Assembly (NCBI RefSeq): GCF_006861775.1
Contig: NZ_VDGG01000035.1
Location: 1 to 40,271, forward strand
Source of the DNA: Psychrobacillus soli
Lineage (GTDB): Bacteria; Bacillota; Bacilli; Bacillales_A; Planococcaceae
Direction: 5' to 3'
Length of the DNA: 40,271 bases
The number at the start of each line of letters is the position of its first letter. Position 1 is the first letter of the stretch. The position numbers and the translations under genes were made by a program. This document shows positions 1 through 40,271 of the stretch, one piece after another. The notes below the pieces were generated by a model. That model ran no database searches, was not told where the DNA came from, and was given only the letters and a program-made list of their open reading frames with translations.

Positions 1-260
1 ACCATTTATTGGATTCTCACAGTAGAAAAACAGTATAAGATTTTGTTTTTAGCGAGTTGATACTGATTAAGTAAGCAATTTATATTGATTTTCGCTGCAG
101 GCGGTGACTCCATTGGGATCAAGTGAGTAAGATGAGACTTCACAACGTACGCGCAAGCGGCGGTGAAGGCTCATCACTCACCCCACGGAAAGCGTCCGCC
201 CTGCAGCGAAAATCATAGCGGACACTTCATTCAAATCACTACGGCGCACTTTCCCTATAG
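1..260 (-). repeat. Composite intergenic repeat, copy A (array cut off by the window edge)
   Basis: The gene-free start of the window holds a long imperfect hairpin at 87-214 whose outer arms GATTTTCGCTGCAG (87-100) and CTGCAGCGAAAATC (201-214) are perfect reverse complements. Inner arms also pair (GTGAGTAAGATGAG against CTCATCACTCAC). Positions 1-86 match, as reverse complement, the linker found beside the other copies and begin inside CCATTTATTGGA, where the 21-bp array starts in complete copies. The hairpin is nearly identical to copy D (28331-28457), and the right flank CACTACGGCGCACTTTCC resembles the flank of D. No protein-coding potential seen. 261-390 is AT-rich, presumably the promoter region of the next gene. 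Confidence 0.85.
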
Positions 261-404
261 TGTCTACTTGTTATTATTCATATTTCCTATACTAATTAAT
301 AAAACATAATTGAAATTTACCCCAATCTACTTCATTATTAATAATAGACAGTCTTTTGTGATGTATTTATACAAAAGAAATATGCTCAACGAAGGAAGAA
401 ACTT

Positions 405-5921: not shown

Positions 5922-6068
5922 AAAAAAACCTCTTCAAATAAGAAGAGGTTAAACGTTTAACGACTTCTTATTTCTCAGTCAATGGACTGCAAGAATTAGC
6001 ACCGTATCCATTAGTTGGACCGGTTGCCGGGTATCATAGGGCTCGTCCCTCCACCTGCTCTAAATAAG
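5922..6068 (-). promoter_or_regulatory. SAM-I (S-box) riboswitch with terminator, controls mtnWXBD
   Basis: On the minus strand the aptamer runs about 6068 to 5967, from P1 CTTATTTAGAGCAGG through GGCAACC and ACGGTGCTAATTC to AAATAAG. A terminator follows at 5950-5922: AACCTCTTC pairs with GAAGAGGTT and runs into T7. The 3' strand of P1 plus AAG can instead pair with CTTCTTATTT to form an antiterminator, so SAM binding should terminate transcription. S-box architecture is established for methionine genes in Firmicutes. Confidence 0.95.
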
Positions 6069-6075
6069 AAAAATT

Positions 6076-6246: not shown

Positions 6247-6447
6247 CTCTTATCAAGAGCAGGCAGAGGGTAATGGCCCGATGAAGCCCAGCAACCGACC
6301 GTAATACCGTTGTGAGACGGGGCGCTTTTGCGCCGAGATAACAATCTCTTAAGGCACGGTGCTAATTCCATCAGAAAGGAAACTTTCTGAAAGATAAGAG
6401 GCGTGAAATCTCTTATTCTACGCCTCTTTCTTTTGAAAGAGGTTTTT
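6247..6447 (+). promoter_or_regulatory. SAM-I (S-box) riboswitch with terminator, controls mtnKA and transporter
   Basis: Aptamer about 6247-6400: P1 CTCTTATC pairs with GATAAGAG. Inside are AGAGCAGGCAGAGGG, CCCAGCAACCG and CACGGTGCTAATTCC, the S-box conserved blocks. The terminator is CCTCTTTC / GAAAGAGG with T5 (6423-6447). AAGAGGCGT, which includes the 3' end of P1, can pair with ACGCCTCTT, hiding the terminator arm; this is the antiterminator. SAM therefore should switch off the rightward operon. This region (5889-6472) is otherwise gene-free. Confidence 0.96.
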
Positions 6448-19483: not shown

Positions 19484-19720
19484 TGAGCCATCCCCGCCGC
19501 CTGCAGCGAAAATCAAGGGAAATTGCTGACTTATTCAGTATCGACTCGCTAAAAACAAAATCTTATCTAGTTTTTCAATTGCCTGAACCCAGTAAATGGC
19601 TTAGGGCAACCAAACTGTCATTGAAAGCAATCAATTCTTTTCGAAGAGCAACCAAATCAGCACGAGAGCAACTAATTGACAGATGAAAGCAACTAATTCT
19701 TAAAATAACAAGTTTACTTG
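19476..19720 (+). repeat. Composite intergenic repeat, copy B (hairpin mostly deleted, array complete)
   Basis: Only part of the hairpin remains: GGCGAGTGATGAGCCATCC leading to CTGCAGCGAAAATC (19501-19514). The linker (about 19515-19595) aligns with the other copies, including the shared CTTATTCAGTATC, CTCGCTAAAAACAAAATC and CCAGTAAATGG blocks. Then five array units with GCAA cores at 19606, 19627, 19648, 19668 and 19689, ending in TTCTTAAAATAACAAG and TTTACTTG. An open frame through it is judged spurious. Confidence 0.85.
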
Positions 19721-27640: not shown

Positions 27641-27678
27641 GCGTGCCGATCATTTGTTGATTCGGCACGCTTTTTTTG
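27641..27678 (+). terminator. Terminator of the pirin gene
   Basis: GCGTGCCGA pairs with TCGGCACGC, followed by T7. Confidence 0.9.
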
Positions 27679-27734
27679 TCTAGGAAACTAGAGATATTTG
27701 GATAATCTCTTAAAGTAACATGAGGTATGGCATT

Positions 27735-28010
27735 CCTTGTTTTATACGTGATATAGAGATAATGCGTCTTAAGGTATCCGCTGTGATTTGTGCTACGGGG
27801 TGGACGCTTTCCGTGAGGTGAGCGATAAGCCATCACCGACGCTGACGCATGCGATGTGATGGCTTATCGTGCTCAACAGAGGAACAAAGGCTCAGGGCGC
27901 CACATCGTGTGGCAACGCCTTCGTGACCAACATCCTGTTGTCCTCCACTGGATTCTTCACCCCTCCGCAAAATTCAATGGAAAATGCTAACTTATTGAAA
28001 ACCGATATGA
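27735..28010 (+). repeat. Composite intergenic repeat, copy C (diverged)
   Basis: Contains GGACGCTTTCCGTGAGGTGAG and a strong hairpin, GTGAGCGATAAGCCATCAC against GTGATGGCTTATCGTGCTCA (about 27817-27876). A second small stem lies at about 27890-27945 (GGCGCCACATCGTGTGGC region). The right part, AATGGAAAATGCTAACTTATTG ending in AATAAATGG, is a degraded version of the linker. Same orientation as copies B and E, head-on to copy D. No gene is seen in 27679-28550; small open frames there coincide with the repeats. Confidence 0.7.
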
Positions 28011-28121
28011 ATAATAAATGGTTGAACGCGACAAACCATTCATACAGATGCTTGTGTGCGAGTTCTGGGGGCTTTAAGGCATATTATTCTTAGAATATGT
28101 CGAAAGCCTCATCGTCTCATA

Positions 28122-28475
28122 CCAAGTAAACTTGTTGTTTTAAGAATTAGTTGCTTTCATATGCAATTTAGTTGCTCTCGCGTCGAGTTTAGTTGCTCTC
28201 AGACTATAATTGATTGCCTCCAATGACCGATTGGTTGCCCTAAGCCATTTACTGGATACACTCACTGAAGAAATTAGAATAAAATTTTGTTTTTTTCAAG
28301 TAGATGCCGATAAGTAAGCAATTTTCCATTGATTTTCGCTGCAGGCGTCGACTCCAGTGGGATCAAGTGAGCAAAATGAGACTTCACAACGTACGCCTAA
28401 GCGGCGGTGAAGGCTCATCGCTCACCCCACGGAAAGCGTACGACTGCAGCGAAAATCACAGCGGTCACTACTACG
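28122..28475 (-). repeat. Composite intergenic repeat, copy D (complete: array, linker, hairpin)
   Basis: The best-preserved copy. Five array units with TTGC cores (GCAA on the minus strand) at 28151, 28172, 28193, 28214 and 28235, exactly 21 bp apart, bounded by CAAGTAAACTTG and CCATTTACTGGA. Linker about 28257-28330. Hairpin 28331-28457 with perfect outer arms GATTTTCGCTGCAG and CTGCAGCGAAAATC and an inner stem. Nearly identical to copy A through the hairpin. Confidence 0.88.
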
Positions 28476-28550
28476 CACTTTCGTTATTATATGCATCGAT
28501 CACGTTTGCTAAATCAGGCAAGACACAGGCGTTTTAGCACTTTTTCTATG

Positions 28551-29049: not shown

Positions 29050-29228
29050 TGGTGTGTACTTGAAATAGGCAGGTCTCCTGGCTCATGATCATCACTTTTC
29101 TTTCCCTTCCCATTAAGGATTAACAGTGGATTTGAAAGAATGCTCCCATTTACAGTTGCGGGACAGCGTCGGTTTTTCACCGAACTTCCCTTTTAAGCTA
29201 TTTTACAAAAGGAAAATAGCACCTAAAT
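29050..29228 (-). promoter_or_regulatory. Cobalamin (AdoCbl) riboswitch
   Basis: On the minus strand: GGTGCTATTTTCC start, AAAAGGGAAGTTCGGTGAAAA, CCGACGCTGTCCCGCAACTGTAA, and the B12 box AGCCAGGAGACCTGCCT (29083-29067). These are the conserved blocks of the cobalamin aptamer in correct order and spacing. No terminator is seen between the aptamer and the AGGAGGTG at about 29030, so control may be on translation. It points away from the MFS gene at 29358. Confidence 0.95.
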
Positions 29229-29357
29229 CTACACGTTATTCAGTTGTACTTTTACTATATCATAGATAAAGTAGAAGCATTTTTTTTGTAAACAATCGCA
29301 AATTTGGACAAGAAAACGGCGTTCACCCTTTCTATAATCAATAGGAGGGGGAGAAAA

Positions 29358-39989: not shown

Positions 39990-40271
39990 ACTATTTAGGG
40001 ATAATGCGCGGTAGTGAGCTGGATAAAGTGTTCGCTGGGATTTTCGCTGCAGTCGAACGCTTTCCGCCGGGTGAGCGATGAGCCATCCCCGCCGCTTAGG
40101 CGTCGTAGGGATGGCTCATTTGCTCACTCATCCGGCAGGAGTCGTCGCCTACAGCGAAAATCCACATAAATGGCTTACTTATCCGCGTAGACTCGTAAAA
40201 AACAAGATTTTACAGTTTTTTCAAATGTTTAAATCCAGTAAATGGTTTAGAGCAACTAATTGGTCATTGAA
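39990..40271 (+). repeat. Composite intergenic repeat, copy E (array cut off by the window edge)
   Basis: Left flank GGGATAATGCG, also seen in copy C. Hairpin 40039-40162 with arms GATTTTCGCTGCAG and CTACAGCGAAAATC (one change) and a strong inner stem, GATGAGCCATCCC against GGGATGGCTCAT. The linker (about 40163-40235) ends in CCAGTAAATGG, then the first array unit GAGCAACTAATTGGTCATTGAA reaches the end of the window. Same orientation as copies B and C. No gene is seen after 39930. Confidence 0.85.

Follow-up and report, generated by a model that had tools for sequence, protein, structure and literature searches.

The stretch of DNA analysed here, referred to as the window, is an entire contig (C31; 40,271 bp) of a 101-contig, 4.2-Mb Psychrobacillus draft genome (the host genome, G000). 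A first-pass annotation of the window had reported five intergenic copies, A to E, of a non-coding composite made up of a hairpin, a linker and an array of 21-bp units, and had left it between a non-autonomous mobile element, a structured RNA family and a chromosome-organising site. The question raised by this locus is which of these the composite is, and how it came to be where it is.

Organisation of the element

The repeat itself is genuine, but what were counted as five copies are a single complete element (C with D), one half that is truncated (B) and, at either end of the contig, a further half (A and E). Copies C (plus strand) and D (minus strand) face one another, the same plan recurs at other loci, and a single gap in the genome of a related species (G016) spans both; we therefore regard C and D as the two ends of one gene-free element, in which the modules run in the order hairpin, linker, 21-bp array, spacer X and inverted hairpin. 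The features of the window are as follows.

27664..27677, plus strand: flank directly left of the element, the end of a terminator-like hairpin with its T-tract, read from the sequence
27678..28541, no strand: whole element C+D, bounds taken from the G016 gap, edges uncertain by several bases
27752..27768, plus strand: outer motif of the C end (TATAGAGATAATGCGTC), the motif found outside most hairpins
27778..27980, plus strand: C hairpin, with 5' arm and apical stem, RF01690 block and 3' arm; hairpin model 38.9 bits over 27778-27912, 3' arm from sequence
27875..27941, plus strand: RF01690 Bacillaceae-1 RNA, 67 nt, inside copy C; 63.9 bits, gathering score 35
28003..28118, plus strand: spacer X, with an inner palindrome copy at 28081-28098; recurs in other copies of the host genome
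28122..28235, minus strand: array of five 21-bp units, with the palindrome CAAGTAAACTTG at its outer edge
28226..28310, minus strand: linker, with CCATTTACTGG at 28245-28255
28325..28464, minus strand: D hairpin; hairpin model 163.9 bits, fold z -7.7/-8.0
28474..28489, minus strand: outer motif at the D end, in degenerate form (minus-strand reading TAATAACGAAAGTGCG), from sequence
2..264, minus strand: copy A, half of an element, at the start of the contig, with linker at 2-66, hairpin at 81-221 and outer motif at about 250-264
19495..19720, plus strand: copy B, a truncated half that retains the final ~25 bp of hairpin, the linker and the array
39996..40264, plus strand: copy E, half of an element, at the end of the contig, with outer motif at 39996-40008, hairpin at 40032-40168 and linker at 40182-40264

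The absence of coding potential noted earlier holds, no open reading frame (ORF) of 80 aa or more being listed across C or D, and so does the shared order of hairpin, linker and array in both orientations; linker and array recur beside hairpins. The window is the whole contig, and A and E run up to its two ends, which leaves their arrays incomplete. Copy B, with just ~25 bp of hairpin, was not detected by the hairpin model, and copy C, which lacks the GATTTTCGCTGCAG base and reads GATTTGTGCTACGG there, scores 38.9 bits against 163.9 for D. Unit spacing is 21 bp in 68 of 79 spacings measured over 23 arrays; the D array was not reported by Tandem Repeats Finder. Complete copies in the host genome typically have one end of the form hairpin, linker and array and another of the form X and hairpin, with the hairpins facing (L001, L189, L190), and there are variants without X or with added pieces (L002, L007, L201). 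Facing hairpin pairs that enclose an array are also found in genomes G013, G004 and G006. Contigs of the host draft (C84, C79, C80, C48 and C13 are examples) often start or stop within these elements, so that copies are split. The window also carries a divergent pair of SAM riboswitches at 5965-6070 (minus) and 6247-6400 (plus), and a cobalamin riboswitch at 29051-29241 (minus).

Conservation and distribution of the hairpin

The first-pass annotation had proposed a covariance model, a search of the host genome and its relatives, and a look for compensatory changes in the stem. A model trained on 30 hairpins of the host genome gave at least 134 matches there (best 150 of 1,211 candidates scored), while copy D as query gave at least 74 (best 40 of 273 candidates scored). 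The hairpin is present in all 19 Psychrobacillus genomes and in 40 of 81 relatives, and is thus not confined to the window; plasmid or phage copies of the element were not found at the sensitivity used. Among 50 distinct hairpins from the host genome and its relatives, 27 of 45 stem pairs show changes on both sides. Paired cells make up 92.6% of this alignment, against a shuffled mean of 84.9% and 33-47% for slid structures, figures that come from an alignment fitted to a model made from the host's own copies and from cells that are not independent events. Pairing is weaker towards the stem base, with 80% in helix 1. The fold of D stands at z -7.7 relative to shuffles when treated as RNA and at -8.0 as DNA. 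Base pairing of the hairpin is conserved, and this fits RNA or single-stranded DNA alike; the suggestion of a structured RNA family is therefore upheld as to structure, and the pairing does not single out RNA.

A motif like TAGGGATAATGCGTC lies outside most hairpins, and the sequence farther out varies by branch. The palindromic tip CGCAGTATAGGGATACTGCG was considered as the true end of the element and rejected, as similarity runs on outward from it in a branch-specific manner.

It could be argued that hairpin and Bacillaceae-1 block act as transcribed RNA, for example at the 3' ends of mRNAs, and that copies are retained for this role with mobility being secondary. The changes on both sides of stem pairs and the cataloguing of RF01690 as an RNA candidate agree with such a role, as does the distribution of copies among gaps, in which divergent gaps are under-used (7/86 vs 63/254, p = 6e-4). 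However, convergent gaps are not significantly enriched (20/86 vs 45/254, p = 0.27), the copies occur in either orientation and often as two facing copies in one gap, candidates number in the hundreds per genome, and a signal acting in single-stranded DNA or in transposition would conserve the stem as well. We consider a primary function as RNA unlikely, though it is the strongest of the alternatives to transposition of the kind described below.

The Bacillaceae-1 block

The statement that no named family has this composition needs to be divided. Copy C holds a full-length RF01690 and is the only one of the five copies, A to E, with a match above the Rfam gathering score; the composite itself was absent from the Rfam searches, and no paper on it was among the matches listed in the open-access literature. 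In the host genome RF01690 has at least 54 matches (best 54 of 376 candidates scored), and it is present in 45 of 81 relatives, in 43 of them above the Rfam cut-off. It is missing from most hairpins of the first 30 host loci. Where it occurs in the hairpin its position is fixed, before the 3' arm, where L004 has 69 bp and L018, L026, L185 and L194 have 6.

When 12 further loci from 12 genomes were folded, three (L140, L145, L149) showed at least 30 pairs across the block; the remaining nine, most of which have other flanks, showed 0-16. These spanning and non-spanning folds, together with the differing flanks, indicate that RF01690 resides in at least two kinds of surroundings. A second repeated frame (GACATCCGCCGGAGG ... 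GGACGCAATTACGCCGA) surrounds RF01690 without the hairpin of this element at L139, L141, L142, L146, L147 and L150.

It is quite possible, and we advance it tentatively, that Bacillaceae-1 is a module carried about by transposable elements with hairpin ends, either instead of or in addition to being a small RNA gene. These structured elements would have been seeded through the genomes of the whole genus, the module would sit in at least two unrelated repeat frames, one IS4 branch would provide the ends in certain species, and a different IS4-family insertion sequence (IS) would land in the hairpin stems. If so, a small RNA family of Rfam would need to be re-annotated as part of mobile DNA.

Filled and empty sites

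At the place orthologous to the window element, G016 lacks 863 bp, with flanks that are 83% and 91% identical; this is an empty site for the element, and a deletion in G016 would also fit. Comparison of the fetched loci gave 20 filled/empty rows, equal to 11 distinct sites by our own grouping, and hairpin modules lie in the gap at seven of these. Of 141 clusters of the element, none is contained in an ORF of at least 90 aa. The earlier proposal of a non-autonomous mobile element is borne out by these orthologous sites and, in relatives, by inverted terminal repeats, by 9-bp duplications and by an IS that shares those ends. The accompanying remark that no target duplication is seen applies to the window copy, which has just a 5-base overlap inside a T-tract, but not to the relatives with their 9-bp duplications. 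That there is no transposase is correct for the element itself, which is free of genes.

Terminal repeats and an IS4-family relative

In sister species, hairpin-bearing elements are bounded by inverted repeats of 17 bp (CACRNSTGTTGATTAWC) and by target duplications of 9 bp, and CTGTTGATTATC-like ends lie beyond the hairpins in elements of G013, G010 and OK032. With two mismatches allowed, the 17-bp pattern outnumbers its reversed control in G010 (29 vs 0), G015 (21 vs 3) and G013 (13 vs 3) and, as a weaker excess, in G000 (9 vs 4), and shows no excess over the control in most other genomes of the genus at the same setting. Searched without mismatches, the pattern turned up in 53 of the 250 genomes examined in the family, alongside two listed control hits. 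In other genera, repeats spaced about 1,255 bp from one another delimit an IS that encodes a DDE transposase (about 375 aa) of the IS4 family, scoring above the cut-off of the NCBIfam model NF033592; this IS also occurs on plasmids of Lysinibacillus and Priestia. Its ends and 9-bp duplication match those of the hairpin-bearing elements of the sister species, and those of G010 and G013 share their terminal repeat with this autonomous IS.

Considering all 43 repeat pairs in the fetched loci, the 9-bp duplication is perfect in 20 and reaches at least 7/9 in 30, against 31 of 1,806 reaching 7/9 in a mismatched-pairing control. The 27 Psychrobacillus pairs contribute nine perfect duplications and 19 of at least 7/9. 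The hairpin model was run on 23 of these (all but L121, L318, L320 and L329): 11 contain the hairpin, seven of them as two facing copies, and ten of the 11 reach 7/9. The hairpin is missing from the other 12 of the 23, and is thus not needed for repeat-bounded elements.

The host genome presents a different picture. A terminal repeat at 12/16 or better was not found near the edges of the window copy, L003 is the only host locus with a 17-bp repeat beside a hairpin, and the outer ends fall into several different classes. Besides an end like TTTAGGAAATTATA, recurrent ones carry GCTAAAGCGCC or AAAGGATAG. Two repeat-bounded host loci gave no hairpin match: L333 on C80 (800 bp, 8/9 duplication, RF01690 inside) and L352 on C43 (299 bp, 9/9 duplication), both with the 17-bp repeat. 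Relatives of the transposase are found in four of 19 genomes of the genus: that of G000 is broken, those of G015 and G011 are partial, and that of G013 is open but 33% identical and has no 17-bp repeat nearby. The G000 relative, at C48 5480-6359, is about 44% identical and interrupted by stops. Judged from their first 60 residues, none of the ORFs of at least 150 aa in 40 repeat-bounded genus loci is transposase-like.

A second IS4-family IS, with ends CATAGC..., is found at L188 1300-2935 (C14 of G000) and at L212-L222 (G010, G012, G018). The L188 element was considered as the mobiliser and rejected, being a tenant whose own ends sit inside the hairpin arms. Eleven-bp duplications flank the six G012 and G018 copies examined (e.g. 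CTACGGGATGA in L214), whereas the half-hairpins of L188 are inverted and without duplication. All 13 loci fetched for this IS have a hairpin match.

Origin of the window copy

On balance the composite is probably a MITE-like transposable element that is not autonomous and depends on an IS4-type transposase acting in trans. The element, gene-free and about 0.7-0.9 kb long, is framed by two long structured hairpins that face each other; its interior is asymmetric, with the linker and 21-bp array next to one hairpin and spacer X next to the other. It would have spread into intergenic DNA through transposase supplied in trans. The 1,255-bp IS4 branch could have been the mover of the family, with hairpins and array serving as subterminal binding or folding sites, and the window copy may descend from a branch whose outermost ends have been replaced or eroded. 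IS4-type transposition is well supported for the hairpin-bearing elements of the sister species. For the window copy we infer it, since no terminal repeat is found there, the two elements of its own genome with repeat and duplication lack the hairpin, and relatives of the transposase are sparse in the genus and broken in the host.

Alternatively, the window branch could have spread by a different mechanism, landing beside transcription terminators, and the IS4-type ends of the sister species could reflect a later capture of hairpin modules by unrelated MITEs. The left edge of the window copy abuts a T-tract, and an outer end like TTTAGGAAATTATA follows a T-tract in 13 of 16 pattern matches among 75 ends, at least three of the 16 looking spurious; hairpins are also constant while outer ends differ, and many repeat-bounded elements have no hairpin. 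However, T-tracts are common in AT-rich gaps and the 13 of 16 stands without a background rate, and no enzyme, duplication or exact boundary was found for such a mechanism, which we regard as improbable. Movement of REP/REPIN-like palindromes by a Y1 (RAYT) transposase is highly improbable and was rejected: inverted hairpin pairs do resemble REPINs and a Y1_Tnp match is present in 18 of 19 genomes of the genus, but 20 Y1 loci fetched with about 1.2 kb on each side contain no hairpin match, the results of the hairpin and Y1 searches do not run parallel across the 81 genomes to which both were applied, G002 has no Y1 match yet at least 39 hairpin matches (best 40 candidates scored), and 9-bp duplications are, to our knowledge, not expected of Y1 transposition.

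If IS4-type transposition in trans is correct, it would explain many intergenic stretches of Psychrobacillus that are now without annotation and that also interrupt draft assemblies, and would provide a natural system of DDE-type-ended elements that carry long conserved hairpins and a two-helical-turn array.

Comparison with known repeats

BOX elements of Streptococcus pneumoniae are, like the element described here, modular, intergenic and able to fold. The bcr1 repeat of the Bacillus cereus group is named as a MITE (PMC3733652) and is likewise a mobile, intergenic, stem-loop repeat of Bacillales; with a length given as about 147-167 bp (PMC2267715), it differs by description from the 0.7-0.9-kb modular element here. 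The same source gives 74 bp for Bhal-1 of Bacillus halodurans, an intergenic stem-loop repeat with a length near that of RF01690, and that the two are identical is a guess. RF01690 itself, listed as an RNA candidate in the paper that named it (PMC2864571), is shared with copy C as a full-length match, but its 67 nt are here one block in the larger hairpin of a repeated element.

The nearest known systems are IS4-derived MITEs. The element has no coding capacity and multiple dispersed copies; like them it is gene-free, multicopy and intergenic, and its sister-species forms have terminal inverted repeats and a 9-bp duplication as in the 1,255-bp IS. It differs from them in the long covarying hairpins at both ends, the 21-bp array, the embedded Rfam motif and a window copy without terminal repeat. 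The window copy is thus MITE-like in its working, and it is by lacking the terminal repeat, the one tested feature on which it fails, that it falls outside strict membership of the IS4-ended family.
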